Source of the DNA: Termitidicoccus mucosus
Lineage (GTDB): Bacteria; Verrucomicrobiota; Verrucomicrobiia; Opitutales; Opitutaceae
Length of the DNA: 64,000 nt
Direction of reading: 5' to 3'
Assembly: GCF_038725785.1 (NCBI RefSeq)
Contig: NZ_CP109796.1
Span: forward strand, 1,054,001-1,118,000
Below are positions 25,178 to 58,321 of this stretch, in pieces (position 1 is the stretch's first letter; each line of letters opens with the position of its first letter). The notes beneath the pieces were generated by a model. It was not told the origin of the DNA and ran no database searches. It was given only the letters and a program-made list of their open reading frames with translations. Position numbers and translations under genes: made by a program.

Positions 25178-26077
25178 TCATGGCAACTTCTGAATCCAAT
25201 CGGCGACAATCTGGCGCCAGCGGGGCCCGATGTCCTTGTCGTAGGCGAAATCTTTGCCATGCCCGCCCGATGAAAACACATGCAACTCCATCGGCAGCTT
25301 TGCTTTCCAACAGGCACGCGCAAAAGTCAAGCTGTCCTCCACGCTGACCGCCGGATCGTCGGCGGCGTGAAATATAAGCGTGGGCGGTGTCTCCGCATCC
25401 ACATGCGCGGCTGGTGCAATATCCCGACGAAGCTCATCAGATGCATCCGCTCCCAGATAGCGGTTGATTGAAGATGATTGAGCAGAGGTGTTGATGACCG
25501 GATAAAGAAGGATGAGCGCGTCGGGTCGTGCCGGGACGGTTTTTGCGAGTTCGTCCGCAACGTCCTGCCAATGGTTGGGGCGCGTGGCCACCAAAGCTGC
25601 AAGATGTCCGCCCGCGCTGCCGCCAAGCAGCAAAATCCTTCCTGGAATTTTCCATTTTTCGGAGTTCTTCCTTATCAATCTGATCGCCCGGCATGCATCC
25701 GAATATGCCGCTGGATGACGGCATGGGGCGACCCGGTAGTCGACTGTAACAGCGGTGAGGCCCAAGCTCCGAAAAAACTCGGCCTGCAATCGTTCGTAGG
25801 GGCTGATCCCCCCATAGCCACCACCGGGCAAAATGACCACGGTATGGGAGACTGCCGGGTTTCTGGAAAACGCCCGATATATTTCCAAGCAGGGCCGGGC
25901 CTTCCCCTCTGGATTATTTGGACTGCCTTCCTCCCATAGAAAATATCGCTCGGGCGCAACTTTATTTTGCGTCGATCCATCCGCCACCGCAAATCCGCCA
26001 GCCAAGTAAATGAATGCCAAAAAGAGAGGGCTGGCCAAAGACGAGCGGCATCGGAACGTTGGGGACATAAAACGCAT
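25178..26077 (-). CDS. Secreted alpha/beta-hydrolase esterase (BD-FAE/acetyl esterase type)
   Basis: A 299-residue protein from MRFMSPTFRCRSS, with a hydrophobic leader (SPLFLAFIYLAGGFAVADG). An alternative start lies 12 codons upstream. The catalytic triad is visible: Ser in LLLGGSAGGHLAAL, Asp in FHAADDPAVS, His in SSGGHGKDF. The oxyanion segment is VILPGGGYGGISPYE. Family members remove acetyl or feruloyl groups from plant polysaccharides. It follows the rhamnosidase gene after a 308-base gap containing a large inverted repeat, so it may head a separate transcript with the MFS and beta-helix genes. Confidence 0.85.
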   Translation of the reverse strand: MRFMSPTFRCRSSLASPLFLAFIYLAGGFAVADGSTQNKVAPERYFLWEEGSPNNPEGKARPCLEIYRAFSRNPAVSHTVVILPGGGYGGISPYERLQAEFFRSLGLTAVTVDYRVAPCRHPAAYSDACRAIRLIRKNSEKWKIPGRILLLGGSAGGHLAALVATRPNHWQDVADELAKTVPARPDALILLYPVINTSAQSSSINRYLGADASDELRRDIAPAAHVDAETPPTLIFHAADDPAVSVEDSLTFARACWKAKLPMELHVFSSGGHGKDFAYDKDIGPRWRQIVADWIQKLP

Positions 26078-26262
26078 GTTCACCAATTTCTCGCCCGCAT
26101 CAAACCTTATCAACTGGATTCATTTTCAATCCGGCAGGGATTCCTTCGATGCGCGAACAACATGCAGGCGCGGAGCGGTAAGCAATCCCATTGGCTTTAT
26201 TTGATATTCATAAGCCCAATGATCGTCGGTGCTGCGCCAAGCCTCGGGGCCAATCCACAACA

Positions 26263-38941: not shown

Positions 38942-39098
38942 AGCAGGTGAGGATTGCATAAACTGATATTTGGCCGAGCATATGCGCACCATTAATCTCC
39001 CCTTCCTTACCCCGCGAAGCACATGGTTTTCCGGCCGCGCGGCGGGGAAATAAATGCATGCAAAATCCAATCTCCCCTTCCTGGTTTATTTAACGCCC

Positions 39099-42000
39099 AT
39101 GAATATAAACAACAAAATACACCTCGCCCCGGTCGCGCGCCTTGTCTCCCTCGCCATCTCACTGTTGTCCGCCGCATTGGCCTGCCGCGCGGATGTCGTG
39201 ACCTTCACGGGCGGCAGCCCCTCGACGGCGGTCAACGCCACCGTCGCCGGCGGCACCATCGCCATCTCGGGCGGCGACGGCAGTCTCGTCCTCTCCAACG
39301 GCCAGACCCTCGTCATCTCCGACAGCGTGTCGCAAAGCGCGGTCGCCACCCTCGGTGGAAAATCCGACATCACCTTCCGCGCCGAAGGCGACGGCTGGGC
39401 CATGCTCAACTCCGCCGGCGGCGCCTACCGCCTGCTCGACATCACGCCCCAGCCCGTCACCGCCTCCGCCACCGCCACGCTCAACCTCGACCGTGTCATC
39501 GTCTCCAATGCCGCCATGAACGCCATGTTTGTTCGCGTTTCCACTGCCAGCTTCGACCTTGTGGTGAACGGCGATTTCGTGTTTTCGGGCAACAAATCAG
39601 CCAGCAGCCACGGCGGCGCGATCAACTGGCAAAAAGCCGGCAACCTCACCTTCACCGGCACCGCGATTTTCGACCGCAACACCGCCGGCGGCACCTACCT
39701 CGGCGGCGCCCTCGGCTCGACCGCCGCCGGCTCCGGCACCATCACCTTCGAGAACACCGCTCTGTTTTTCAGCAACACCGCTGCCAGCGGCGGCGCGATT
39801 TTCACCCACCCCGGACATTCCCTTATATTCAAGGACGCCGCCGAATTCAAAAACAACATCGCCTCCACCGGACAGGGCGGCGCGTTTTATATACAAAGTA
39901 ACGACACTTATCTCGGCATGCAAAAAATCCGCTTCGAGGACGACGCCACATTCGACGGCAACCGTGCCGTCGCCCAAGGCGGTGCCTTCTCCACGGATGA
40001 CCGGGTGATCATCCAGTTCGACTCCACGACCGGCACCGTCACCCTCACCAATAATCGCGCCGGCAATGGCAGCGGCGGGGCGATCACCAGCGGTGAGATC
40101 AGCTTCAAGGGCGGTCTGCTCACGGTGACAGGCAACTTTGGCGGCACCGCCACCACACATGCGGGCGGCGGGCTCCGCGCCGCGCGGCTGCTCGACATCA
40201 CCGGCAATTATAATATTTCCGGAAACCAGACGATGGGCTCGGGCGGCGGTGTCAGTGTCGGCAGCCTGCTGATCAACGGCGGCGGCACCCTGTCCGGCAA
40301 TATCGCTTCAGTCAACGGAGGGGCCGTCAACGCCGCCGGCAACAGCACCTTCGAAATCGGTGGCGGGGCGGAGCTCTCCGGCAACACCGTCGGCGGCCTT
40401 GGCGGCGCGATTTATGTGGGTGGCACCTCCCGGCTCACGCTCAACGCCTCGGCGGGCGACATCGTTTTCAGTGGCAACAAACAAGCTGCGACGATTGACT
40501 CCGCCGCCGTGAGCACCGGAGGCACACTGGCTGCCACGGGCGGGACGAATAATGCCGTCTATTTCGCATCATCCGCAACGCTCGTGCTGAATACGGGCTC
40601 AGGCATGGCTGTCCGTTTTGATGACCCCATTGAGTCCGCATCCGGGGCGACTGTGATGGTCACAAAAAGCGGCGCGGGCACCGTGATCTTTTCCGACCAC
40701 CATTCCAATATCAACGCGACCACGACCATTGAGCAGGGAGAAATCAGGCTCTCCCGAGGCGCGATCTACGGGGCCGCGAATGACCAGGGTAGCTTTGTCC
40801 TGAAAACCGGCGCAACGCTGGCCGGAAACGGAACGGTTCAGGCCGGCGCCATCGAAATCGAATCCGGCGCGCGGTTGGTTGCCCGGGATTCAGGCCGGCT
40901 GGAAATGGCGAGCAGCGCCACGCCGGTCATTGGCGGCTCGCTCTCGCTCGGTGGCTCCGGCACGATTGCCGTGGGCGCGGCGTCGAATCTGCTTCACGCA
41001 TCATTGATAGATGTGGGAGCTGACGAACCGGCAGGGGCCAGGACACTCGCCATCGCCAACGATCTCTCGCTCGAAAACGGCGCCGCCATCCGGCTGGATC
41101 TGTATGCAGGCAATATATCGGATAAACTGGCGGCCTTGTCCGATCTGGCGATGGAGGGCCGCGCCAGTATCAACATCGGGCTGGTCGAGACTGGCTCCTT
41201 TAATCTGGTGTCATGGGAAACGGGCGGGCTGACGACGGCGCAGTTGGACCTCTCTTTCGGCAGCGGCACCGGGCAGACGGCCCGCAATGACGTCCAACTT
41301 GGGGTGGACGCCACCGCCAAGACCCTTTATTTGACCAACATTGTTTCCAGTCTCGATATGGCCTGGACCGGATCGGCGGGTGACGGGATCTGGCAATCAT
41401 CCGCGCTGGAAAGCGCGAACTGGTCCAATGGTGGCGCAGGCAATGAGGAACGTTATTTCCGCAACGGAGACTTGGTGTCGTTTGGCGGCGCGGCGTCCGG
41501 CACGATCACCGTCGCCGGTCCAGGCGTGGTGGTTTCGGGTATGACAATTGAGGGCACTGCCGATTATGAATTTCGCGGCACCGGCGGCATCACGGGCAAC
41601 ACGACCGGTGTGGAGGGCAGCTTGATTACGGCCACCGGCAAACTGACGAAAAAGGGGACGGGAAAACTGGTGCTGGCCAACACCGGAGCCAATTCGTTTT
41701 CCGGCGGGGTCGAGATCAAGGGCGGCGAACTGGCCGTGGCCGATGGCACCCGGCTCGATGCGGACATCACCATTGACGACCAGGACGGAGACGGCGCGAA
41801 GCTCTCCGGCTCCGGAACCTTTGGCAACATGGTGGTGAGAAACGGCGGTGTGCTCAGCATCGGAACCTCGGCGGCGTCATCAGGCACCATCACGGTCGCC
41901 GACCTAACGCTCGACCATGCGAGCCTTTACTTCGATTTGCTTGCGAACAACAGCAGCGATTATCTCAAGGTGACCGGCAGCGCGCTGGCGCAAAGCAGCA

Positions 42001-44675: not shown

Positions 44676-47600
44676 ATGAAAAAGAACCCTTTCAACGCCA
44701 TGAAAAAATTCCTTATTGCCATCCTGCTGGCTGCGGCGCTTCCGCCATCCCCGGCATCTGCCGCCGCGCCTGACGAAATGGAGTTTGATTGTATCCCCGC
44801 GCCCGGACGGGCCTATGCCAAGGCATTTTTTCTGCCCGGCGAGACTGCCGAGACCGAATTGCGTATCCGCCTGTTGACAGACCAACAGGGGATCGCGGGG
44901 ATCGTGCTGGACGCGTCGGTTTTTGACCTATGGGATAACCCCGCCGGAACGATAACGGTCACGTCCGCCGGCGCCGGCCAGAACGGATATGATTATATAC
45001 TCAAGCCCTCCGTGAACGCGCTCGGGTGGTTCAGGGTCGAGCTGACCCTGAAAATCGGCGGGCAATCCGTCCGCCTGAAACGGCGGGCGAAGACCACGTC
45101 GTCGGAAAATTATGATTTTATAACATTCGCGATGCTGCCCGCGCCACGCACGCCCGAACAGACGCCGGACAGCCCCTTCGGCCTCATGACCGCGTTGCTG
45201 GCGCAGCCGTTCTGTCCCATTTCGGCGCAGGTTGACCTGGCCGCATATTCGGGCGCGCGCTGGGCCCGCGAGACCGTCAGCTGGAGCAGGGTCAACCCGG
45301 GACCGGGAAACTATAATTGGGCGGCAAACCGCCAAAATATCACGGCGCTGGCGGAGCGCGGCTTTCATATTCTCGGCTTGATCCAAACCAGCCCGGAATG
45401 GACGCACCCGGCGGACGCCGGCCTGCATGTGCTGCCGGCTGATTTGTCCGCCGCCCGTGATTTTGCCCGGGCGCTGGCGCTCGACTTCGGCCCGCTGGTG
45501 CGCGCCTGGGAAACCTGGAACGAGGAGGACATCGGCGCCTTCTCCATCGACCCGCCCGACCGCTATGCCGCCGTCGCCAAGTCCCTCTCGCTCGGCCTTT
45601 CCTCCGCCGCGACCGCGCCGCGCGTCCTGCTCGGCCCGGTCGCCCGCGACCCCAACGCCGGCGATTTCGCCGCGCTGCTCGCCGCCAACGACCTCGCGCC
45701 CTACCTCGACGCTTACAGTTTTCACACCTACACGCCCGCCACCTCCGCCTTGTTTGGTGCAACACTGGAAACGCACCTCGCCGCCGCGCGCCAGCTTGGT
45801 CTGGGCGACCGGCCGGTCTGGCTGAGCGAAACCAGCCTGCCCTACGCGCGCAACAAGGTGCCGGCGCCGACGGAGGCGGTGCCGGCGATGCGCGCCCAGC
45901 TCGCCCAAATGGGAGCCTCTTACATGGAGTGCATCGCCCGGAATATAAAGCCGGTCTTTTGGTTCATCGTCCGCCCCTACATAAGCACCAGCACGGCGAA
46001 GCCGTCGCAATGGGGAATGGTTGACACCCAGTTGTCGCCCCTGCCCGCGTATCCCGCCTACGCCGCGATGACCCGGCATCTGGGCGCGGCGACTTATATT
46101 GGAAAAGTGCCGCTCGCCGCCGGTGCCGCTTGGCTGTTCAACGACGGACGGGACGAGGTCGCCGCCGTGCTCCCGCCCGCCGGCGCCGGCGAGATTTCCC
46201 TGCCGTCCGTCGCGCCGGAGGCGGAGGCGTTCGACGTGATGGGCAACCCGCTCGCGCTGGCCCCCGACGGCGCCGGCAAAAAAGTCGCCGCCAGGGGCTT
46301 CATTGTTTATATAAAAAACCCCGGCTGGCAAAACCTCGCAGAGCCGCCGGAGCCGCCCACCGGGGCCGCCCCCCGCGCGCCCGCGCCCGTGGTCATGCAG
46401 GCGCTGTTCCCGCGGAAAAACATGGAGCCGACAACCGCGCCGCTGGAAAACTGGGATGCCGTCCTCGCCAACTTTTCCCCGCGCGGATACAATTACAAGG
46501 CCGGGGAGGAGATCCCGTTCTCGCTCGAAATATATAATTTCGGCGACACCGCCGCCATCGGCGCCGTCACCGCCGCCCTGCCCGCCGGCTTCTCCATTTC
46601 TCCCGCCGGCGTCGTCTCCTCCGTGCAAGTCGCGCCCGGCGCCCGGGCGGCATTTGACTTGACACTAAAAACCCCGGTGGCGGATTTGTCCGGCATGGTG
46701 GTTTTTCAAGGCGCCTTCGGCAACATGCCGGCCGTCGCCACCGCCTCTCGCTGGACGCTCGACAAAACGCCGGTCGCGGAAGTTTTTGATATAACCGAAA
46801 CCGGCTTCATCCTCGATTGGAAACCCGTGCCCGGCGCGTCCGGCTACATGATTGAAATGGCCACCGACGCCGGATTCGCAAATCACATTCCGGGTTATGA
46901 TAAACTCGATGTGGGCGACACCTTGGGCCGGACAGTCGCGAACTTGGCGCCGGGCACAACCTATTTCGTCAGGGTGTATAATCGTTCCGCCTCCGACGCC
47001 CCGTCTGCCCCGGTTTCAGTGACAACCCTGCCACTGCGCCCTCCGGTGGTCACCAGCGCGGATGCGATTGTGTTCACCGCCGGCGTGCCCTGCGCATTTG
47101 CCCTTCGCGTGGAAGGAACGCCGCCCTTTATTTATGAGGCGGATTCGCTTCCTGCCTGGCTGACGCTTGATGAGAACGGTATTCTCTCCGGAACGCCTCC
47201 CCCGACGGCGACCGGTGACAGCCACACCATCCAGATGACGGTGCGCAATGCCGTCGGCAATACTCCCCCTCGACAACTGACACTCGCAGTGGAGGCGCCG
47301 CCCGGCATCCCCCTGCCCGCCTTGGATGTCCGCACCCTGGCCGGCTCCGCGGGAATCCCTGGCAATATCAACAATACCGGCACCGCAGCCCGTTTCAACG
47401 CGCCGGTTGGCATCGCCGTTTCCGGCTCATTGGTTTTCGCGGTCGATTCCGCGGGCAACGACATCCGCAAGATCACCCGTGACGGCGTCGTTTCCTCTCT
47501 CGCCGTCGATACCGTGTTTGACAGCCCCACGGGCATTGCCGCCGACGGCAAAGGCAATTTATACATCGCCGACACCCTTAACCACGTCATCCGCAAAATC

Positions 47601-48644
47601 ACCCCCGCCGGCAAAGCCAGCATCATCGCCGGCGATCCGGCACAAAGCGGCGCCACTGATAATCCCTCGCGCTTTGACACGCCGACCGGCCTCGCGTTGG
47701 ATGCGGACGGGCAGAATCTTTACGTGGCCGACACCGAGAACCACCTTATCCGGAAAATTGAACTGGATGGCGGCAATGTGACAACCATCGCCGGACGCGC
47801 GGGCCGACCGGGATTCATCGACGGTCCACTCTCGGCAGCCCGGTTCAACGCACCGTCCGCCATCACGGCGGGCTCGGGCGGGTGCATCTTCGTCGCCGAC
47901 ACAGGCAACAATACCATCCGTCGCATCAACACGGCTACCGGGGAAGTGAGCACATTGGCCGGACTGGCCGGCTGTATCGGCGCAAGCGACGGGGCGGGTG
48001 CCGCCGCGCGATTCAACGAACCCTCCGCCCTCACCCTCGAAGCATCCGGCAGCAACCTCTATGTGCTCGATACGGGAAACAGCATCATTCGCAAAATCGC
48101 TCTCGCCACCGCCAATGTGACAACACTTGCGGGGCTGGCTGCCACGCCCGGGGACGCCGATGGTGAAGGCTCCGTCGCCCGTTTCAAATATCCATCCGGC
48201 ATCGCCGCGGATGCCGGCGGAAAATTGTACATGGCTGATACCGGGAACCACACTCTCCGCTCCGGCGAGCCGCCCGGAAAACCTGTCATCGAAATCCAAC
48301 CAAGCGACCAAATGCTGAACCCTGGTGATACCCTCCTTCTTTCAACGGCTGCCGCCGGGCATCCGCCGCCTTTGTATCAATGGTATTTTAATGGCAACGA
48401 AATTCCCGGGGCTATCGGTGACACTTATATGCGCTCCAATTTGCAGGCATCGGATGACGGTCTTTATGCAGTCAAGGCATATAACACACTCGGGGAAACC
48501 ATGAGCATCGGCGCCCGCGTCACCATTGCAAATCACAACGATAGCTCCAAAGGCGGCGGCGGCGGTTCGCCGGGGTTCTGTTTTTACCTCCCCCTCCTCC
48601 TTCTGCTCCTGGTCCGGTCATTGCTCCATCGCGGCCTCCGCTGA
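44676..48644 (+). CDS. Multidomain clan-A-type glycosidase with NHL propeller and C-terminal sorting-like tail
   Basis: A 1322-residue protein. The signal peptide is MKKFLIAILLAAALPPSPAS (an internal Met at 44700 is an alternative start). An N-terminal beta-sandwich precedes a TIM-barrel-like domain with likely acid/base Glu283 in WETWNEED and nucleophile Glu385 in WLSETS, as in GH39/GH5-type clan A enzymes. A NEW3-like domain (about 600-690), an FN3-like domain (about 700-790), a putative-Ig/cadherin-like domain (TLDENGILSGTPP) and an NHL propeller (about 885-1190) follow. The NHL blades include NLYIADTLNHVIRKI, IFVADTGNNTIRRI and LYVLDTGNSIIRKI. Next comes an Ig-like domain. The C-terminus is GGGGGSPGF, a hydrophobic stretch and basic residues, like a cell-surface sorting signal. 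Paralogues lie at 53398 and 55930. Confidence 0.8.
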   Translation: MKKNPFNAMKKFLIAILLAAALPPSPASAAAPDEMEFDCIPAPGRAYAKAFFLPGETAETELRIRLLTDQQGIAGIVLDASVFDLWDNPAGTITVTSAGAGQNGYDYILKPSVNALGWFRVELTLKIGGQSVRLKRRAKTTSSENYDFITFAMLPAPRTPEQTPDSPFGLMTALLAQPFCPISAQVDLAAYSGARWARETVSWSRVNPGPGNYNWAANRQNITALAERGFHILGLIQTSPEWTHPADAGLHVLPADLSAARDFARALALDFGPLVRAWETWNEEDIGAFSIDPPDRYAAVAKSLSLGLSSAATAPRVLLGPVARDPNAGDFAALLAANDLAPYLDAYSFHTYTPATSALFGATLETHLAAARQLGLGDRPVWLSETSLPYARNKVPAPTEAVPAMRAQLAQMGASYMECIARNIKPVFWFIVRPYISTSTAKPSQWGMVDTQLSPLPAYPAYAAMTRHLGAATYIGKVPLAAGAAWLFNDGRDEVAAVLPPAGAGEISLPSVAPEAEAFDVMGNPLALAPDGAGKKVAARGFIVYIKNPGWQNLAEPPEPPTGAAPRAPAPVVMQALFPRKNMEPTTAPLENWDAVLANFSPRGYNYKAGEEIPFSLEIYNFGDTAAIGAVTAALPAGFSISPAGVVSSVQVAPGARAAFDLTLKTPVADLSGMVVFQGAFGNMPAVATASRWTLDKTPVAEVFDITETGFILDWKPVPGASGYMIEMATDAGFANHIPGYDKLDVGDTLGRTVANLAPGTTYFVRVYNRSASDAPSAPVSVTTLPLRPPVVTSADAIVFTAGVPCAFALRVEGTPPFIYEADSLPAWLTLDENGILSGTPPPTATGDSHTIQMTVRNAVGNTPPRQLTLAVEAPPGIPLPALDVRTLAGSAGIPGNINNTGTAARFNAPVGIAVSGSLVFAVDSAGNDIRKITRDGVVSSLAVDTVFDSPTGIAADGKGNLYIADTLNHVIRKITPAGKASIIAGDPAQSGATDNPSRFDTPTGLALDADGQNLYVADTENHLIRKIELDGGNVTTIAGRAGRPGFIDGPLSAARFNAPSAITAGSGGCIFVADTGNNTIRRINTATGEVSTLAGLAGCIGASDGAGAAARFNEPSALTLEASGSNLYVLDTGNSIIRKIALATANVTTLAGLAATPGDADGEGSVARFKYPSGIAADAGGKLYMADTGNHTLRSGEPPGKPVIEIQPSDQMLNPGDTLLLSTAAAGHPPPLYQWYFNGNEIPGAIGDTYMRSNLQASDDGLYAVKAYNTLGETMSIGARVTIANHNDSSKGGGGGSPGFCFYLPLLLLLLVRSLLHRGLR

Positions 48645-48699
48645 TCTTTTGAATACGACATGATCGGGCATCAATAAACGTCTCATCCCCCTCGAAATC

Positions 48700-50796
48700 A
48701 TGCCATACTACATATGCCTGCGTTCACTTTTGTTCATTGCCGGCCTCTGCGCCGCCACGCTGTCCGGCCTGGCCATGCACACGGTTTCCATCGAGTCCTT
48801 GTTGCTGGAAATGGTCGATCGCGACGAGCGTGCACGGTTTCCCGAACCCGCCTTCACCTGCAAACAGGCCAGCAGTTACGACCGCGCCAGCGTCGCCAAG
48901 GATCAACCCGGTTGGTTCGGCAACAAGGATCGATCCTGGTTTTTGCGCGTGGAACGGGACCGGGGACGCCGCGAGTTTGTCATGATGGATGCGGAAGGCC
49001 CGGGTGCCATTGTCCGCTTCTGGATGACTTTCTCGGGGGAAGCCGGCGGGCGCGGCACCCTGCGCATCTATATTGACGAGTCGCCGGTTCCGGTCGCCGA
49101 GGGGCGCGCCTTTGATATTCTAAGTGGTAGTCTCGTGACCGGTGCGCCGCTAGCGGCCTCCGTCTCCGAGGCGACCATCTACAGGCGGCGCGGCCATAAT
49201 TTGTATTTTCCGATCCCCTATGCAAAACGTTGCAAGGTCACCTATGAGAGCGAAGGCGTCCACGAGGACGATTACGGCGCTTATCGCGTGCATGAACCGG
49301 GGACGGAAGCCGTATATTATAGTATCAATTATCGCACCTATGCCCCTTCCGTAAAGGTCGTTTCTTATTCCGAGGCAGAGTTGAAAAAGAACAAGGGCAT
49401 CATTGCCTCCACCCTGAAACAGCTCACCGCCGGCGGACGGACACTTTCGGCCGAAAGCGCGAAGCTTCGATTGGATGCCAGCCTGCGCCCCGGCGAAAGC
49501 AAGACATTTGAGGTCAACAACGCCGGTGCGATCCAACACCTCGCGATGCGGCTCCAGGCCGAAAACAAGGAGCAGGCGCTTCGCTCCACCGTGCTCGAAA
49601 TCGCCTTTGACGGCGAAAAAACCGTATGGGTGCCCGTCGGCGATTTTTTTGGCATCGGTTATAAACAAATATATACAAACACATGGTACACGACGGCCGA
49701 CGAGGACGGGTTGATGCAATCCTACTGGATCATGCCCTTTGCGAAAAATTGCACGATCACCTTGTCCAACCTAGGCAGCCAGCCCGTCAGCGTGACCGAC
49801 GCGTCCGCCAGCATAAAGGACTGGACCTGGGACGACCGCTCCATGCACTTTGGCACGACCTGGCGGCAATACACCAAGATACTCGCGGGGCCTTACGAGC
49901 AGGCGGTTGATCTCGGCTATGCCAGCCTTGAGGGAAAGGGTGTTTATGTTGGAGACGGGCTCGTCCTGTTCAACACGGGATACCGCTGGTGGGGCGAGGG
50001 GGACGAGAAAATCTATGTGGACGGTGAAAAATTTCCCTCTCATTTCGGCACCGGTACGGAGGATTATTATGGATACGCCTGGTGCCGCTCGGAAACCTTC
50101 ACCGACCACCCCTTCATCGCCCAGCCTTTGGGCACGGGCAATTTTTGCCCGGGCTACAGCGTGAATGTCCGTATGCGCGCGCTGGATGGCATTCCGTTCT
50201 CCAACTCGCTCCAGTTCGACATGGAGCTGTTTCCCTGGCTCTATTCCAGGCTCAATTACGCGCCTACTGCCTTTTGGTATATGCTCCCCGGAGGAAAAAA
50301 TCTCTCGGCCCGGGATCTCGTCGGCGCCAGGGAACCTGTCGCGCTGGACCGCGCCGATATTTATCCACCCGTGCTGGACGAAAACCTGGGCGTGGAGGCG
50401 GAAAACCTGACTTGGATCAGCACACCTGCCGGGTCGTTCACCTATCAGTCGCACGACACGCTGCCGCTGAGCGGCGGGGTGCAGTTGTTCTGGAAGGATG
50501 CCGAGGTAGGCTACCGGGCCTCCTTCGGCTTCAATTCAAACATTGAGGGCGTTCGCTCATTGACTGGAGTTTTTACCACGGCGCGTGACCATGGCGTGGC
50601 CGATATTTATCTGAATGGCAAAAAGGTCTTCGGCAAACTAGATCTGGGCAGCGACGAGCCGGGCATCAAGACAGTCAAGGCCGGCCCGGTGAATCTGCTT
50701 AAAGGCCGCAATTTGATTGAGATCGAACTCGTCAGGCACGCCAAGGGCGCCATCAACAAAAGCAACTTCGCCATCGACCGGCTGTCTTTCGAATAA
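48700..50796 (+). CDS. DUF2961 (GH172-like) secreted protein
   Basis: A 698-residue protein with a signal peptide ([16 protein letters not shown]). DUF2961 features are clear: [15 protein letters not shown] near residue 105 and [15 protein letters not shown] near residue 450. Some members of this family are alpha-D-fructofuranosidase or difructose-dianhydride enzymes (GH172). The EDYY segment is a plausible catalytic region. The protein is well over 200 residues longer than a typical single-domain member. The extra C-terminal part (from about residue 565) looks like a beta-sandwich ([18 protein letters not shown]). It follows the multidomain glycosidase by 55 bases. Confidence 0.75.
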
Positions 50797-50881
50797 AGAT
50801 ATAAAATACATTTGGCATCAGGCCCGGATTCCATCTGATGCGCCCGATAGAGAACAACCGCATGAGATACAATTATCAAAA

Positions 50882-51913
50882 ATGAAACCTCCAACCTGCT
50901 TGAGCAAACGCGAGGTGGTAATCCGCGCCCTCCAAGGTGAAGCGGTGCCCTACACACCTTGGTCTTTCCGTTTCACAAAGGAGCCTTGGGACACCCTGCA
51001 ACAGCATTTCGATGATGCCGATTTGGAGTCGGTGCTCGGCAACCACATCCTTGAACTGGGCAGTGCGATAGGGTTCTTCGAGGATCTCGGCAACGACCGC
51101 GTTCGCGATGCCTTCGGTGTCGTCTGGGATCGTTCTCAAGACAAAGACATTGGCAGCGTCGATGGACTTGTCCTGACCGATCCGACGCTCGTCAACTACA
51201 CCTTTCCCGATCCCTGCGATCGGCGTTTTTTCAACGATATCGTGACGTGTTCCGCCCGTTATCCCGACCGTTTTCGGCTTTTTACCCTTGGCTTCTCACT
51301 TTTCGAACGCGCCTGGACACTGCGCGGAATGGAAAACCTTTTGGTGGACATGGTGGAAAATCCGCGCTTCGTTCACGCGCTCTTGGACGCCATCACCGAT
51401 TATAATATCGCGCAGGTGAAAAAGGCGCTGGAATACGATATCGACGCGGTGTACTTCGGCGACGACTGGGGCCAGCAGCACGGCTTGATCATGGGGCGCG
51501 CCAAGTGGCTCGAGTTTATACAACCACGCCTTAAGCGCATGTATGCCGTCACGAAATCCGCAGGGAAATGGCAGTTCATCCATTCCTGCGGCGATGTTGA
51601 CGAGTTGTTCGACGACCTGATTGGTATCGGCCTGGACTGCTTCAATCCCTTCCAGCCCGAGGCGATGGACATCAAGACGGTTTATCACAACTACCGCGGG
51701 CGCCTTTCGTTTTGGGGCGGGCTTTCAATGCAACGCACCTTGCCGCATGGCACGGTGGAAGACGTTCGTCACGAAAGCACTGGTTTGTTGCAAATGGGAT
51801 TGGACGGCAATTACATATTTTCGCCCTCGCACGCCGTCGAGGGTGACACGCCGCTCGAAAACATCCTCGCATTTATAGAGGCGGCCCAAAGCCAGCCGGG
51901 CTTTGGAGGCTGA
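50882..51913 (+). CDS. Uroporphyrinogen decarboxylase-family protein (methyltransferase-like)
   Basis: A 343-residue protein from [18 protein letters not shown]; the frame extends upstream into the previous gene but without sense. The fold markers of UroD/MtaA-type proteins are present: [19 protein letters not shown] (His-x-Cys), [19 protein letters not shown] and [20 protein letters not shown]. MtaA-type corrinoid methyltransferases bind zinc with His, Cys and a later Cys; here the first two are present but the later Cys is replaced in FSPSH. True haem-pathway UroD is unlikely in this context. A role in methyl transfer is possible but unproved. It is convergent with a paralogue at 52287. Confidence 0.75.
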
Positions 51914-51926
51914 TTGCAAGCAATCA
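51911..51926. repeat. 16-bp palindrome at the UroD-like stop codon
   Basis: TGATTGC-AA-GCAATCA is a perfect inverted repeat that includes the stop codon. No T-tract follows. Could be a terminator element or operator. Confidence 0.3.
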
Positions 51927-52286
51927 ATGACATGTGGTTTCGAGATTTCATGCATTGGGAGTCATCCCTGCCGCAGATCTGGCGCGTCACGGTGGTCGCC
52001 ATGATCCGGCGAGGGATCGACCAAAAAGGTGAGGATACTGTGCCAGGATCTAGGTTCCCCAATAGGGATTTTTCGTGGCCGAAGTGTGCTGGGCGACCGG
52101 CAGCGGCGCGACATGACATTTCCGTGTGGCCGTGAGCCCCACCGGTTTTATCTCACGATGCAGAAAACCCGGTGATGCGTCGATGCCTCCCTGTCGGTGA
52201 TTCACCTGAAAAACCTTGGCAGCCCTGGTCTCCAAAACCTCCCTTGCCTGAACGCCGTTCCGCTCCGTGAGCAACCGCGTTTCGCT
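51927..52286. other. Gap between convergent UroD-like genes
   Basis: No gene is supported. Short frames on both strands have no recognisable motif and no ribosome-binding site. Confidence 0.4.
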
Positions 52287-53345
52287 TTATCCGCCCCAAT
52301 TGCGGACAGTCTTTATCATTGCGAGTATGTTCTCCACCGGTGTCCCGGCTTGGACATTGTGGCAGGAACAACAAATATAACCGCCCCCCTGTCCCAATGT
52401 TTTCATGCATGTTCGGGTTTCGTTAACCACGTCTGAAACACTCCCCCTTGGGAGAATTTCCTGATTCTCCACGCCACCGTGGAAAACGAGGTCTTGCCCA
52501 TGTGTGTTCTTCAGCTTCAACCTGTCCATCCCGGCGCAGACATGCTGGATTGGGTTCAGTATGTCTATGCCGCAGTCGATCAGTCCGGGAATCAGGGGGG
52601 CCACCGCGCCATCGGTATGATACAGCACCTTTTTCCCGTATTGATGGATAAGATCGCACCAGCGCTTCAATCTGCCCCGGAAATGACGCTCCCAGGCGTC
52701 AAGTGAAACCAAAAGGCTCTCCTGCGTCCCCATGTCGTCACTGATAAAAATGATATCCAAGCTATCTCCGAGTGCCTGGAGCATTCGTTCAAGCATCGCG
52801 GTCTGGATGGCATCGATTTTGTCAAGCGCCGCCTCCAAAAAATCCGGCTCCGTCAAAATGTCCATGAGCGCGTTTTCGAGACCGCGCATCTGGCAGTATA
52901 TTTCAAAATGGGATATCCAAGGGCCAATGGTCGCGAAATCATACGATCTCGCCCTCCCGGCCAGCGCCCTGGCCCCATTGTAATCAAACAGATCCGGATT
53001 GGGCCACGATGGATAATCGGCCAGCTGCCGGAGATCGGCATATCCCGCAAGGGGCGGATTGATATATTCTTGATAGGTGGCCAGCCCGGCCTTGACCTGG
53101 CGGGTCGGCACGCCCCAAGGGTTGGTTCCATCGCCGTCATCCGGGTCCGGAAAACGCCCGTCATATCCGGGGAAAACCCATGCAATCTTGTCGATTCCAA
53201 GCGCGCGATACACCTCAAATTCATCTTGCAAAGATGTATATGATCTGAGCGTGTCCAGCACCTCAGGCACGCACCAGAGATCGACCGGCGGACGATCGAC
53301 GGATTGACGGTTTAGCGTGGAAAGGATTCGTTCCTGTGAAGTCAT
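52287..53345 (-). CDS. Uroporphyrinogen decarboxylase-family protein, paralogue
   Basis: A 352-residue protein from MTSQERILSTLNRQ. It shares the UroD/MtaA-type layout: RPPVDLWCVPEVLDTLRSY, FISDDMGTQESLL, VLYHTDGAVAPLIPGLIDCG, VFHGGVENQEILPRGSVSDV and GGYICCSCHNVQAGTPVEN. Here the HTDG segment lacks the Cys of the HSC motif, while the later segment has three Cys, the opposite of its neighbour at 50882. It is convergent with that gene. Function uncertain; corrinoid methyl transfer or a non-catalytic role is possible. Confidence 0.72.
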   Translation of the reverse strand: MTSQERILSTLNRQSVDRPPVDLWCVPEVLDTLRSYTSLQDEFEVYRALGIDKIAWVFPGYDGRFPDPDDGDGTNPWGVPTRQVKAGLATYQEYINPPLAGYADLRQLADYPSWPNPDLFDYNGARALAGRARSYDFATIGPWISHFEIYCQMRGLENALMDILTEPDFLEAALDKIDAIQTAMLERMLQALGDSLDIIFISDDMGTQESLLVSLDAWERHFRGRLKRWCDLIHQYGKKVLYHTDGAVAPLIPGLIDCGIDILNPIQHVCAGMDRLKLKNTHGQDLVFHGGVENQEILPRGSVSDVVNETRTCMKTLGQGGGYICCSCHNVQAGTPVENILAMIKTVRNWGG

Positions 53346-53397
53346 GTGCTGGAATAATCGGACGGGCGATATCTGTATAACAGCTAGCGCCGGAATT

Positions 53398-55503
53398 TCA
53401 CGGGTGCTTGCCGGATTCGGCTTTGGGCTTGGGCTGCCAAAGCGACACGCAGGAAGTGGTCTGGCCGTCACCCACCCTCGCGCGTGCCTTCAGTTTGAAT
53501 TCCTTCGTTTCCAGAGAGGTGCGGATGGAAACCGGAACCACGGCCTTCCCCATCGGCCCGATAGCCACGGATGGAGAAGACACGATCACCTCGGCGCCGG
53601 TCGCGGGTTCAAAATGAATCGTCCCCTCAATTTTCCGGTCGCTGAAATTATAGACTTCCATTTGGAGATTCACGGTTTCCCCAGGGGTAAAACGATAGGC
53701 GGCCGGCGCCCAGTTCGTGGCCAGAAAGTCAAAGTTTTCAAGCGGTTCGTCGAGCCGTTGGATAATCCGGTCGCGATCAATCACGCCGAATAATACCACA
53801 TCAAAAACACAATCGTCGGGGTAGTTCATTTCCTTGACGCCCCCGGAGACGGTTGCCGGCTTCTCGATGCGATCACTCCAATCGACGGATTTGAGATAAA
53901 CGGGCATTCGACCGACCGAGATTTTCCCCCGACTGGTGTCAATCCGGCTCCCCATAACATTGATCGCCTCGACTCCTTCGAATTTTCTTATGTCGAGCGT
54001 TTCGGGCTCGCCCTCCTCCTTCCACACCATGGCGACCTGCTCCCGCCTGCCGGGGCCCGGACCGGTGCCGAAAACATATCCCTGCAACCTGCCGAAACGC
54101 AGATCCCCTTGGTATTCGGCTTTGCCCAAAGTCGAGGTCATGACGGCGAGCGCGACGTAGGCGGGATAAGGCGTCCAGTCCGCGCGGACGAGACCTGTTT
54201 GTAATGAGCCTTTCGTCTGCCCGAAATACGGGCGGAGTATGAACCACCCGATGCGATCCACTCCGCCGACAATGTATTCGGCGTAGGCACGCACGAGATA
54301 GTGCGTCTGCCCTTCATGGGCTTTTTCAAAACTTATCTTCTCCGCGCTCCGCCTCCACAACGCGCCAATCTCGGATATCCATTTTTCCTTGTTCCGAAAC
54401 CCGTGCCGGAACGCCTCCCTGGGATGGATTTCGGCCTGCGCCTGAAATTTCCCCGCGGTGAAAGGCGCGTAGGCGTGATAGTCATACGCGTCCAGATAAT
54501 GCGTGAGCTCGTTTTCCCAAAGTATTTCGTTAAACACATTGGGGGAGCGGGCAAATGGTCCATTCGAAACGAGCGGCCCGTTTGGGACGGATTTCATGCC
54601 CAGGGCAATCGCCTTGGCCATTGCCGTGTAGTGGTCGGGAGTGCCTCCCCCAAAATGGGCGATATCCTGTTCGTTCCAAAGCTCCCATCCAAATACCCGC
54701 CCTTTGTAGTGCCTCGCGACTTCCATTCCATAGCGATGGGCGGCCAGTAGATCGTCAGGAAAACGCACAAGATCGTCGCGCCGCGTCCAGTTCGGGCTTC
54801 TTTGAAAGACGCACATCACTTCCAATCCGCGGCTGGCATAGGCATCCATCACATTGTCAAAGTGATTCCAGTTGAACTGGTCCGGATTCGGATTCACCCG
54901 TGGCCAATCAAATCGTTCGCGACACCAAGCCACCCCGGCGGCCGAGGCCAGTTCCGCGGATAATTCCAAGTATTTCCGCTCATACGCGGAGACGGCGGTG
55001 TCCAATCCGAACTGCGGCGCGCGTCTTTCCGGAGGAAGCGGCCTTGGAATCACCGCAAACGTCAAAAACCGCGCCTGATCCAATATTTGCTCTGGATTCG
55101 CGGCATACCCGATTTTGAGAGAACTGTCGCCGGGCTCGGCGGAGAACCCCACGCGATACCATCCCAAGCCCGGCACCCTGGGCTTTAGGCAGATGCCGGT
55201 TTTGCCCTCAGCTTGATGAATCCGGGCCATCCCCTGATCAATACGATTGCCCCAAAAGTCGCACACTTCATAAGCCAGTTGGCGTCCATCCAGCGTCGTG
55301 GCACTCGTGCGGACAGAAATCTCCAGCACCACCGGCTGATCCGATGTAAAAATAAAATAATCCGTGATTTTTACCGGCACGTTCTCGGCCGGCCCCAAAA
55401 CAATCGACTCCTCCGCTGCGCGCACGGACATTGCAAGCATGGCGGATAAAACCATGCAAAGGTGGATCAGAATCCCGGATAACTTTATTAGTTTATAGTT
55501 CAT
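53398..55503 (-). CDS. Secreted clan-A-type putative glycosidase, paralogue 2
   Basis: A 701-residue protein from MNYKLIKLSGILIHLC, with signal peptide core LIHLCMVLSAMLAMSV. The N-terminal beta-sandwich and TIM-barrel-like core match the paralogues at 44676 and 55930 but are more divergent. Likely acid/base is Glu278 in WELWNEQD and nucleophile Glu378 in WISEIG; YLDAYDYHAYAP corresponds to the usual His/Tyr segment. A C-terminal beta-sandwich (NEW3-like; YRFTPGETVNLQMEVYNFSD) ends the protein without NHL or sorting tail. It is on the same strand as paralogue 3, 426 bases away. Substrate unknown. Confidence 0.7.
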   Translation of the reverse strand: MNYKLIKLSGILIHLCMVLSAMLAMSVRAAEESIVLGPAENVPVKITDYFIFTSDQPVVLEISVRTSATTLDGRQLAYEVCDFWGNRIDQGMARIHQAEGKTGICLKPRVPGLGWYRVGFSAEPGDSSLKIGYAANPEQILDQARFLTFAVIPRPLPPERRAPQFGLDTAVSAYERKYLELSAELASAAGVAWCRERFDWPRVNPNPDQFNWNHFDNVMDAYASRGLEVMCVFQRSPNWTRRDDLVRFPDDLLAAHRYGMEVARHYKGRVFGWELWNEQDIAHFGGGTPDHYTAMAKAIALGMKSVPNGPLVSNGPFARSPNVFNEILWENELTHYLDAYDYHAYAPFTAGKFQAQAEIHPREAFRHGFRNKEKWISEIGALWRRSAEKISFEKAHEGQTHYLVRAYAEYIVGGVDRIGWFILRPYFGQTKGSLQTGLVRADWTPYPAYVALAVMTSTLGKAEYQGDLRFGRLQGYVFGTGPGPGRREQVAMVWKEEGEPETLDIRKFEGVEAINVMGSRIDTSRGKISVGRMPVYLKSVDWSDRIEKPATVSGGVKEMNYPDDCVFDVVLFGVIDRDRIIQRLDEPLENFDFLATNWAPAAYRFTPGETVNLQMEVYNFSDRKIEGTIHFEPATGAEVIVSSPSVAIGPMGKAVVPVSIRTSLETKEFKLKARARVGDGQTTSCVSLWQPKPKAESGKHP

Positions 55504-55929
55504 TGGATTTTTTGTAAAACGCCTTGCAAACAGCTCATCCAAGCCGCCGCTCCGATTGAACGCCAAAGAATTTGACGCCTGCATCGAAGGATGGTGGCTC
55601 CGGTGCAATGTTTGAGGCAGTGCGGGTATATGATGATGTGAGGCATGAGGCAGCAAAATGCGCACCCTGATTTTGGGTCACGCTCAATGCTTCAACTCAG
55701 CATTTTTCTCCAATGCTTTCGACAAGATTCTGGTGGAATCAAATAGAAGCCAATCTCGAAAATGCGCAACCCGGTTGCCTGATAATCCAATTTCTCTGTC
55801 ATGAACAATCTTGCGCACGGCGGTGTATGGCCGGGCCAACTTGGCAGACGGATAATGACGGTGCCGGCAAATCGTTCGTCGCCAAAACGCCCCCGTTTCA
55901 TGCAAAATGCCATCACTGGCACCCCGACA
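55504..55929. other. Gap between two paralogues
   Basis: No gene is supported. Minus-strand frames here overlap each other without a recognisable domain. A decayed fragment is possible but I cannot name it. Confidence 0.35.
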
Positions 55930-58218
55930 TTAATTCTCTTTATGAGTCCAGCGCGAGACACTCGGGGAAACAGGTAGATGATCAAATTCGGCCTGCCAGA
56001 TCCAATAATGCCCTGGAGTGATATCCTTTCCGACTTGATATCCATCACCGGAATTGCGGGCGGCCTTGACTGACAATGGGACGGCCACTTTTTGTCCCGC
56101 AGGAATCTCCACTTCAAAGGTGTTTTCGCTCGCGATAAATCCGGCGGGGGGACGAAACCAGACTTTGCCCCGGGAGGCCGAGGAGCCGAAATTATAAATG
56201 TTCAGAGTCACGGGGATGTTTTCGCCGGTTCTGAACATATATCCCCTCGGCGCCCAATTGGCCAGGAGATCATCCCAGTTTTCATAGACGATACCACCTG
56301 TCTCGACCATCCCCCGGGGATACTCTGGCTGGAGGACGATGTTGCGCTGCATGGAAACGCGGGAATGGCTCGTCCCGGGCGCCACAGGTTTCAGGACGCC
56401 ATGCGGCATAAAATCCGGCCTTCCTCGCCAGCCCGGATTCCGAACATAGGCCATGTATCCCCGGGTTGAGACTGTGACAGCGCCATTTTGCTCGCGCAAT
56501 GGGATATCATTCCCCATCACATCGAAAGCCAAGGAACCGGGGGCCACGGGTGGAAGCGTGACCACATCCTCGCCTTGCGATGCGAGGACTACGGCAACCT
56601 CATCGCCGCCATCATCGAATATATAACAACGTCCTGTATTTTCCGGGCTTCCCTGTTTGTCCCGGCCAGCCGTCATGCTTCCCAAAAATCTGCCGGCGCC
56701 AAGCTGTTTGCACATGACGGCAAATGCCGGGTAGGCCGGCACCGGTGAAAGCCTGCTGTCCACCATGCCCCATTGGCTGGGCTTGGGAGTGTATTTGCTG
56801 ATATAAGGACGTATCATAAACCAGAACACGGGTTTGATGTCCTGTTGAATCGCAGTCATGTAGGTCTCGCATAACTGCCTGAGTTGCGCCGATAAGGCGG
56901 GCATGGGCTTGGGCACCGTATTCCGGGCATAGGCCAGACTCGTTTCGGTAAGCCAGATAGCTCGCCCGGAAAGTCCCATCATATCGGCGGCATTGAGATG
57001 GGTGTCCACCACCTGCTGAAAGCGTCCGCCGACAACCGGATGATAGGTGTGGAAATTGTAGGCGTCGAGGTAAGGCGCGATATCATTGGCCTTGAGCAGA
57101 CTGGCATAACCTCCCACTTGCGGATCGCGCGCAAATGCCGCGAGCAGAACGAGCGGGCGCGCCGCCCCGATGGATTCCGCACCGGCCGAAAAACCGAGCG
57201 AGAGCGCCTTCGTCATCGCCGCATAGCGATCAGGAGTTTCGGTGGTGTAATGCGCAATATCAGGTTCATTCCACGTTTCCCACGCCTTGACCAGCGGGCC
57301 AAACGTTGCCGCCGCCTCCCGGGCGAAGCCATATGCCACGGTGAGGTCTTCCGGAAACGCGGGTTTGCCCTCCGCATGAGGATGCGTCCACAAAGGAGCG
57401 CGCTGGATCAGAACCGAAACGTTTATTCCGAGACGCGCAAGCATTTCGATTTCATGTTTGCGGCGGCTCCAGTCGAACTCACCCGGCGAGGGGTTCGCCC
57501 GCTCCCACGATATGATCTCCCGCGCCCAGCTTGCGCCCGAACAACGGGTGATCTCGACTTGGGCGGAAATCGGACAAAAGGGCTGGGGCAACAAGGCGCT
57601 CATTACCCCGAATGGCGTTTCCATATCCGCCTCAGTTCCGATCAAATTACGCGGCTCCGGCAGGCGCGCGAAAGCAAGAAAATCATAGTTCTCGGCCGAA
57701 TTTGCCACCCCAGGTTTGCGCTTAAGCAACACCTCCCGCCCATTGATTCTTAGGGTGAGTTCGATGCAAAACCAGCCGAGCTTTTGGACGCGCGGCGTGA
57801 TGACATACTCATATTGGAATTCTGGCGGACTATTGGAATGCGTTCCGGCTTGAGTCGCAGGCTGGATGTCCACGCCTCCCGCCACCTGCGACCAGAAATC
57901 GAAAACCTTGCCCTCAAGTTGCATGCTGCCGGTTGGGAATGATGCAGGACCAGCGTCCCCGGCCTCCATATCCGACCCGTCCGACGGCAGCAGCCTGATT
58001 CGCATGGCCACCTTTTCGCCGGGAAGGAAAAACGCCTTGAACCATGAGCGACCTTCGGATGTCACGGGCTCGAACCAAACCACCGAGGGCGATGCGGTGG
58101 ATGCCTTCATGGCAAATCCGCCTGAAAGCACACCGGCCGCAATGACCGTGAGCAGGCGAGAAATGACCGGAATGATATTTCGGGTTGGAGGAACGGAAGC
58201 AATTTTCAGGGTATTCAT
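55930..58218 (-). CDS. Secreted clan-A-type putative glycosidase, paralogue 3
   Basis: A 762-residue protein from MNTLKIASVPPTRNII, with leader RLLTVIAAGVLSGGFAMKAS. It is the closest relative of the N-terminal half of the 1322-residue protein: shared segments are LPQPFCPISAQVEITR, KAWETWNEPDIAHYT, APYLDAYNFHTYHP, IWLTETSLAYARNTVPKP and KPSQWGMVDSRLSPVPAYPA. Likely acid/base is Glu318 (WNEPD) and nucleophile is Glu425 (WLTETS). A C-terminal beta-sandwich (YMFRTGENIPVTLNIYNFGS) follows. It has no NHL propeller or sorting tail. GH39/GH5-like chemistry is inferred from the two Glu motifs. Confidence 0.72.
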   Translation of the reverse strand: MNTLKIASVPPTRNIIPVISRLLTVIAAGVLSGGFAMKASTASPSVVWFEPVTSEGRSWFKAFFLPGEKVAMRIRLLPSDGSDMEAGDAGPASFPTGSMQLEGKVFDFWSQVAGGVDIQPATQAGTHSNSPPEFQYEYVITPRVQKLGWFCIELTLRINGREVLLKRKPGVANSAENYDFLAFARLPEPRNLIGTEADMETPFGVMSALLPQPFCPISAQVEITRCSGASWAREIISWERANPSPGEFDWSRRKHEIEMLARLGINVSVLIQRAPLWTHPHAEGKPAFPEDLTVAYGFAREAAATFGPLVKAWETWNEPDIAHYTTETPDRYAAMTKALSLGFSAGAESIGAARPLVLLAAFARDPQVGGYASLLKANDIAPYLDAYNFHTYHPVVGGRFQQVVDTHLNAADMMGLSGRAIWLTETSLAYARNTVPKPMPALSAQLRQLCETYMTAIQQDIKPVFWFMIRPYISKYTPKPSQWGMVDSRLSPVPAYPAFAVMCKQLGAGRFLGSMTAGRDKQGSPENTGRCYIFDDGGDEVAVVLASQGEDVVTLPPVAPGSLAFDVMGNDIPLREQNGAVTVSTRGYMAYVRNPGWRGRPDFMPHGVLKPVAPGTSHSRVSMQRNIVLQPEYPRGMVETGGIVYENWDDLLANWAPRGYMFRTGENIPVTLNIYNFGSSASRGKVWFRPPAGFIASENTFEVEIPAGQKVAVPLSVKAARNSGDGYQVGKDITPGHYWIWQAEFDHLPVSPSVSRWTHKEN

Positions 58219-58321
58219 TTTCACATGGTCTTTCAAAACACGGGAGCGTGGTGTTGAGTGGCGAAAACTTGTTCAAAATCCAGAAGATCGGGCCAATTAT
58301 ATCAACATTTTTGCCTGCGAC

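Follow-up and report, generated by a model that had tools for sequence, protein, structure and literature searches.

The stretch of DNA analysed here, 64,000 nucleotides of the Termitidicoccus mucosus genome (family Opitutaceae; contig NZ_CP109796.1, positions 1,054,001 to 1,118,000; hereafter the window), raises the question of what is encoded by three open reading frames (ORFs) of one locus, here called W1, W2 and W3. The host bacterium is a relative of symbionts of the termite gut. An initial annotation had taken them for a three-member family of secreted, clan-A-like glycosidases, each with a pair of catalytic Glu residues, and had left their CAZy family uncertain. In our analysis, the three proteins are very probably secreted retaining beta-glycosidases of the glycoside hydrolase family 39 (GH39) type, a reading of family and mechanism in which activity, retention, cellular location and substrate are all predicted. 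Profile and fold comparisons place them with good confidence in GH39, on the side of PslG and of the protein in Protein Data Bank (PDB) entry 5jvk, as a new, apparently rare subgroup of known GH39-type enzymes. The features of the trio are as follows.

44676..48644, plus strand: W1, 1322 residues; signal-like N terminus, GH39-type unit, fn3 and Ig-like domains, NHL propeller, Ig domain and C-terminal sorting-like tail (from the ORF list, Pfam, profile and motifs)
44676..46769, plus strand: GH39-type unit of W1, approximately residues 1-698 (profile positions 27-742 of 745)
53398..55665, minus strand: W2, 755 residues; signal-like N terminus and GH39-type unit only; ORF start GTG, likely start Met55 at 55503
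55930..58236, minus strand: W3, 768 residues; signal-like N terminus and GH39-type unit only; ORF start TTG, likely start Met7 at 58218
45522..45524, plus strand: W1 Glu283, predicted acid/base (equivalent of PslG E165 in the profile alignment)
45828..45830, plus strand: W1 Glu385, predicted nucleophile (equivalent of PslG E276 in the profile alignment)
54670..54672, minus strand: W2 Glu332 (278 from Met55), predicted acid/base by motif position
54370..54372, minus strand: W2 Glu432 (378 from Met55), predicted nucleophile by motif position
57265..57267, minus strand: W3 Glu324 (318 from Met7), predicted acid/base by motif position; Glu in 63 of 63 aligned rows
56944..56946, minus strand: W3 Glu431 (425 from Met7), predicted nucleophile by motif position; Glu in 63 of 63 aligned rows

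Family and catalytic residues of the trio

The resemblance of W1, W2 and W3 to one another is far above chance. When W3 was used as the query against its own genome (7.92 Mb, two contigs), W1 was found at an expectation value (E) of 4.3e-179, with 49% identity over query residues 43-764, and W2 at E 1.8e-67, with 30% over residues 144-727; two more distant matches lie 0.9 Mb off (E 3e-6 and 6e-5). Pairwise identity to W3 is 49% for W1 and 29% for W2, which bears out the earlier description of two close members and a divergent one. The proteins are homologous along some 600-700 residues, and an iterated profile of 745 positions covers positions 27-742 in W1, 1-745 in W2 and 41-745 in W3; since this is nearly its whole length, the similarity reaches beyond the barrel. 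A hydrophobic, signal-like stretch was read at the N terminus of all three.

Each protein carries the same motifs at nearly equal spacing. In W1, WETWNE ends at E283, YLDAY occupies residues 343-347 and WLSE ends at E385; in W2, numbered from the GTG start, the corresponding positions are E332 (WELWNE), 390-394 and E432 (WISE), and in W3, numbered from the TTG start, E324 (WETWNE), 389-393 and E431 (WLTE). The two Glu residues are separated by 102, 100 and 107 residues in W1, W2 and W3, respectively. The family of three, its place in the window and the Glu numbers first proposed (283/385, 278/378 and 318/425) are thus all recovered, the numbers exactly so when W2 and W3 are counted from their downstream Met starts. 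In the profile alignments to PslG, the Glu of WNE falls on chain position 139 and that of W[ST]E on position 250, which would correspond to E165 and E276 if, as we infer, the chain numbering is offset by 26. According to passages of PMC11912335, E165 is the postulated acid/base of PslG and E276 its covalently labelled nucleophile; by this residue alignment, the WNE and WxxE Glu residues of the trio match the acid/base and nucleophile of characterised GH39 members. The proposed clan-A-type glycosidases with their named Glu pair are supported, and profile and fold both lead to PslG and 5jvk.

At the level of sequence, the assignment emerged only with profiles. A first contig scan for relatives with W3 alone found none; a second one, with a four-row alignment, confirmed 189 stretches, of which the 80 with the best scores were kept. 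The resulting alignment of 63 rows (A3) comprises 60 of the 88 listed segments and the three window rows, the relative at locus L006 being left out. Compared with the PDB, the W3 sequence by itself matched 5jvk at E 0.00033. A three-row profile of W1-W3 found 5jvk at E 1.5e-11 and PslG at E 1.8e-10, with the next chain at 0.001, and a seven-row profile of the clade described below reached 6e-18 and 5e-15, respectively, with the next chain at E 0.002; this amounts to significant similarity to members classed in GH39. With the 63-row profile, GH39 xylosidases were found at E 1.4e-32 to 3e-25, ahead of every other family.

An AlphaFold model of W3 built on the 63-row alignment had a mean predicted local distance difference test score (pLDDT) of 88.9 and a predicted template modelling score (pTM) of 0.92, and replaced an earlier model on the three-row alignment (pLDDT 42.7) that was of no use. 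Foldseek ranked 5jvk (1.2e-22) and then PslG (2e-19) at the top. In VIA-align, the model superposed on PslG with Z 27.1 (380 residues, 3.5 Å) and on 5jvk with Z 24.5 (455 residues, 3.7 Å), the latter alignment including the N-terminal part (model residues 11-558). The (alpha/beta)8 barrel and associated beta-sandwich of GH39 are seen in the W3 model and its alignments, and extend to W1 and W2 through homology. A search of a viral fold library returned phage and virus proteins, among them several named glycoside hydrolase, with A0A6J5RA53 at the top (E 9e-18), and gave no added insight.

Three sets of known structures are closest. PslG of Pseudomonas aeruginosa (classed in GH39; PDB 5bx9, 4zn2, 9g17) shares with W3 the barrel, the C-terminal beta domain (model residues 161-559) and the Glu pair, but the identity is 15-16%, the alignment leaves out the N-terminal and the last beta domain of W3, and PslG is part of the Psl exopolysaccharide system. 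The 5jvk protein, a GH39 protein from Bacteroides cellulosilyticus WH2, is the best sequence-profile match, and its N-terminal part, barrel and C-terminal part all align with W3; it differs in its 18% identity, and the W3 domain after residue 558 and the NHL repeats and tail of W1 fall outside the aligned range. The GH39 beta-xylosidases (for example, 2bfg and 1px8) have the same fold as W3 (Z 21-23), but at 11-13% identity they escaped the clade profile (E threshold 0.01) and were found by the 63-row profile alone.

Several observations weigh against this assignment. No glycosidase model of Pfam or NCBIfam lies above its cut-off for W1, W2 or W3, and none of the window proteins taken singly matched PF01229 (GH39) at E up to 0.1. 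The identity of W3 to PslG and 5jvk is merely 15-18%, the fold evidence comes from a model of W3 alone, with W1 and W2 brought in by homology, and the classical GH39 xylosidases are hardly separated by Z from the other clan-A families, which reach Z 21.8. The trio might instead fall into a different family of clan A (GH5, GH10, GH30, GH42 or GH79) or into a family that is sister to GH39 and separate from it: W2 comes just below the Pfam cut-off to GH42 (E 0.00075) and matches GH10 at E 0.039, GH1, GH42 and GH53-type chains are likewise found with the 63-row profile (E 1e-7 to 1e-13), and PF00150 and PF02449 each match as many of the 63 rows (29) as does PF01229, so that Pfam alone would not settle the family. 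We nevertheless consider such a placement unlikely, as PslG and 5jvk alone are strong matches of the clade profile, their Z scores exceed those of the best other clan-A family by 2.7 to 5.3 units, and the xylosidases of GH39 precede any other family in the 63-row profile search.

It may also be asked whether one or more of these proteins could be a non-catalytic carbohydrate-binding protein on a GH39 fold, given that the activity of the trio is predicted only. Six residues (R239, E320, N323, E324, H396 and E431 in W3) are invariant in all 63 rows, and all six are kept in W1, W2 and W3, which makes this alternative quite improbable. It should be added, as a further point on the debit side of the assignment, that the relatives were fetched with patterns that included the WNE and YLDAY stretches; conservation there is partly due to selection, so that only the conservation of R239 and E431 is independent of it. 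Shortly past a strand of the model, position 477 of W3 is Pro in all six clade rows of this alignment, while among the other 57 rows it is Asp in 33 and Pro in 9.

If the GH39-type reading is right, each protein would combine a beta-sandwich with an (alpha/beta)8 barrel and additional beta domains. The WNE Glu would donate a proton to the leaving group, and the Glu of W[LI][ST]E would form a covalent glycosyl-enzyme that is then opened by water.

Descent and distribution of the GH39-type clade

Did the three genes arise from one another within this locus? The initial annotation had suggested a recent duplication and divergence. In a quick tree of 62 rows, the best-scoring of 112, W1 and W3 are sisters (Shimodaira-Hasegawa-like approximate likelihood ratio test, SH-aLRT, 100) and are joined by a pair formed by the Opitutaceae termite strain TAV5 (locus L006) and the Verrucomicrobiia metagenome-assembled genome (MAG) 5_bin.45 (locus L032; support 99). 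The next to join are L031, from another Verrucomicrobiia MAG, and L033, from a Clostridia MAG (87); W2 lies outside these six, inside the seven-row clade (99). A second tree of 71 rows, hand-picked from the first set and from new loci with more Verrucomicrobiota, gave the same picture with supports of 99, 99, 92 and 100; neither tree was bootstrapped. W1 and W3 are 52% identical in the tree columns, so their split is not very recent.

A recent tandem duplication of one gene as the source of the whole trio agrees with the shared locus, with the common domain order of the GH39-type unit and with the sisterhood of W1 and W3. Against it, W2 falls outside the relatives from other species (SH-aLRT 87 and 92), and the approximately unbiased (AU) test rejects a single clade of W1, W2 and W3 (p 0.00185). 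We regard this origin as very improbable, even if the long branch of W2 (0.93-1.03) leaves its exact placement unsure. The earlier proposal, read as one recent duplication yielding all three, is not supported, being disfavoured by both trees and rejected by the AU test.

The clade looks rare in the genomes searched. W3 alone, compared with 57 genomes including its own, gave matches spanning most of the protein in its own genome and in TAV5 only, the latter from the same family as the host of the window; two genomes of the same genus, 68-72% complete, yielded distant matches only. When W2 alone was compared with 384 genomes from the class, W1 was followed by the MAG of L032 (219 bits) and then by a match at 122 bits. 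The clade profile, run on 387 genomes of the phylum with three candidates scored per genome for most of them, exceeded 900 bits in the own genome and in the MAG of L032, both of which match by construction as members of the profile, and the next score was 237. The TAV5 and L032 relatives, the sister pair of W1 and W3, are 36-38% and 33% identical to W3, respectively, and bear a C-terminal esterase where W1 has its Ig domain, NHL repeats and tail. Some genomes of the phylum (loci L117, L118, L121 and others of families f35, f40 and f51) held up to 99 first-look candidates for this GH39-like profile, of which three per genome were scored, hinting that the wider family may be greatly expanded there.

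The C-terminal half of W1 and its predicted sorting

Why is W1 so much longer than W2 and W3? Past the GH39-type unit, it carries additional domains and ends in a tail reminiscent of a sorting signal.

46788..48506, plus strand: fn3 (residues 705-782, below the cut-off), He_PIG (789-872), NHL repeats (approximately 898-1192) and Ig (1202-1277), from Pfam
48543..48641, plus strand: GlyGly-CTERM-like tail, with a Gly-rich stretch, a hydrophobic stretch and a basic end, as read from the sequence

A weak Pfam match to NPCBM_assoc was also seen at residues 608-667 (E 0.029). NHL repeats were observed too in distant GH39-like proteins, at locus L005 of the same genome (Pfam) and at L016 of the same genus (by eye), so W1 is not the only barrel protein of this kind with added NHL repeats.

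The tail shows the Gly-rich, hydrophobic and basic succession of GlyGly-CTERM, and the processing enzyme, rhombosortase, is encoded in the same genome: two proteins, at C1:3593896-3594372 and 151185-151655, lie above the curated cut-off of TIGR03902. None of the 14 control genomes had a protein above it, all 14 giving weaker matches. The only curated GlyGly-CTERM model to match W1 was NF038115, at E 0.054 and far below its cut-off; because no curated GlyGly-CTERM model matches above its cut-off, the tail is termed GlyGly-CTERM-like. Searched against the own genome, the tail gave 22 other weak matches (E 0.009 to 5.4). Of 19 further loci that were fetched, 14 showed by eye an ORF ending in the same succession, four being without a pattern match and L160 having an unrelated one; at the locus of W1 itself, the tail-pattern script returned a nearer antisense match instead. 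Passages of a 2011 report describe GlyGly-CTERM in one Opitutus terrae protein and, in Verrucomicrobiae bacterium DG1235, a rhombosortase without a detected substrate (PMC3237569). In our survey, many large ORFs (ends in L146-L164) have GlyGly-CTERM-like tails, with a Gly run, mostly APG or APS, a hydrophobic stretch and a basic end; together with the two rhombosortases, such tails are suggestive of an expanded sorting system in the host Opitutaceae genome.

W1 would thus probably be processed by rhombosortase via its tail and kept at the surface, and W2 and W3, which have no such tail, would probably be periplasmic or released. A similar division is described in passages of PMC10688797 for two GH39 enzymes of Bifidobacterium that cut arabinogalactan side chains, GAfase being anchored to the cell wall and AAfase secreted; the likeness is one of description.

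Neighbouring genes and the putative substrate

Which glycan might the trio attack? The clues come from the neighbouring genes, of which five are listed here.

48700..50796, plus strand: DUF2961/GH172 protein directly downstream of W1 (Pfam PF11175, E 1.8e-59)
50717..51913, plus strand: URO-D superfamily protein, MtaA/CmuA-like (below the NCBIfam cut-off; Pfam, NCBIfam)
52287..53471, minus strand: second URO-D superfamily protein, adjoining W2 (Pfam, NCBIfam)
25178..26113, minus strand: stand-alone BD-FAE-type esterase, 30-35% identical over approximately 207 residues to the esterase domain fused in TAV5 L006 and L032
33242..34357, minus strand: enolase-superfamily protein, acid-sugar dehydratase-like, 48% identical to a gene adjoining the GH39-type gene of L031

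The DUF2961 protein has the catalytic residues of GH172: its Glu433, Glu454 and Asp455 share alignment columns with Glu233, Glu254 and Asp255 in chain 8ah3, which we take, from its label, to be DgGH172c. The catalytic Glu pair and Asp of DgGH172c are among the mutated residues in passages of PMC10115798. The genome holds two other GH172 genes. Beyond GH172, the two URO-D genes are convergent; that they might demethylate O-methyl sugars is purely a guess, and a literature search found no paper joining uroporphyrinogen decarboxylase/methyltransferase with a glycoside hydrolase and polysaccharide in Verrucomicrobia. Past W3 lie two Zn-dehydrogenases, an AraC regulator and a GHL6 protein (Pfam). 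Leftward of W1 are a TonB receptor (36183), a 2-hydroxyacid dehydrogenase, the enolase-superfamily protein, a BNR protein, AXE1 and BD-FAE esterases, a bacterial alpha-L-rhamnosidase, a pectate-lyase-like protein, a second TonB plug, GH2, PfkB and an HpcH/HpaI aldolase. Two large autotransporter-looking ORFs were also noted, at 4201-8385 (with a PATR repeat) and at 39054-44630 (with a barrel-like end, by sequence reading). Scans for promoters and terminators stood at the level of shuffled sequence (7 hits compared with an average of 7.3, and 17 compared with 19.7), so no operon is claimed.

Some of these neighbours recur near the relatives of the trio. The relatives at L006 (TAV5) and L032 (a MAG) carry a BD-FAE/alpha-beta hydrolase domain on the same polypeptide as the GH39-type unit, and these esterase fusions hint at acylated plant glycans as the substrate. 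Relatives of the 2-hydroxyacid dehydrogenase occur near L031 (29%) and L032 (42%), those of the HpcH/HpaI aldolase near TAV5 (29%) and L032 (24%), BNR proteins (Pfam) near L031 and TAV5, and relatives of the Zn-dehydrogenase and AraC proteins near two more distantly related loci of Cohnella, L034 and L037 (26-38%); these are recurrences as observed, uncontrolled for chance co-occurrence. In a tblastn comparison of 26 window proteins with the relatives' loci (E up to 1e-8; flanks mostly at most 6 kb), 13 had no match, among them GH172, GHL6, AXE1, the BNR protein, the TonB receptor at 36183 and an MFS transporter, and URO-D matched only L105, outside the clade. The association with GH172 and URO-D is thus local to the window as far as tested.

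The similarity to PslG raises the alternative that the trio acts on a bacterial exopolysaccharide or capsule rather than on a plant glycan, PslG being the top fold match and, as described in PMC11912335, an endo-beta-glucanase of the Psl system. The scanned neighbours are mostly catabolic, however, with esterases and TonB receptors; polysaccharide-synthesis genes were absent from the 30 window ORFs scanned, which are a part of all those present; and the third gene from the GH39-type relative in TAV5 encodes a GH10 protein. We therefore find a role on bacterial polysaccharide rather doubtful. The neighbours point to the breakdown of a plant glycan that is acylated and perhaps contains acid sugars, without telling xylan, pectin and arabinogalactan apart, and the most likely class, an acylated plant cell-wall glycan, has a little less than an even chance in our judgement. 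Two facts temper this choice: it depends on neighbours of mixed character (pectin-, xylan- and acid-sugar-like), and those shared neighbours that are in the left part of the window are at least 9 kb away from W1-W3. Under the plant-glycan reading, the trio would act within a glycan-use region that also comprises GH172, esterases, a rhamnosidase, GH2, an acid-sugar enzyme and TonB receptors, and could possibly attack several linkages of one glycan, as was first proposed.

A broader view can be offered tentatively: the trio and its relatives may represent a separate GH39-like subfamily, scattered among Verrucomicrobiota, present in one or more clostridial lineages and unnamed by single-sequence Pfam or NCBIfam searches, whose new specificity would be the debranching of acylated plant glycans together with, or fused to, an esterase, the host genome of the window deploying it in surface-sorted and free forms. 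The principles of glycan degradation are unchanged by these findings, and the enzymes, useful to enzyme hunters, are not a new kind of system. Yet proteins that Pfam and NCBIfam do not label as glycosidases now receive a family name and predicted catalytic residues, and an apparently rare GH39-type clade is connected with esterase fusions and a surface-sorting-like tail. W1, W2, W3 and the TAV5 fusion provide concrete targets in the search for a new GH39 specificity.

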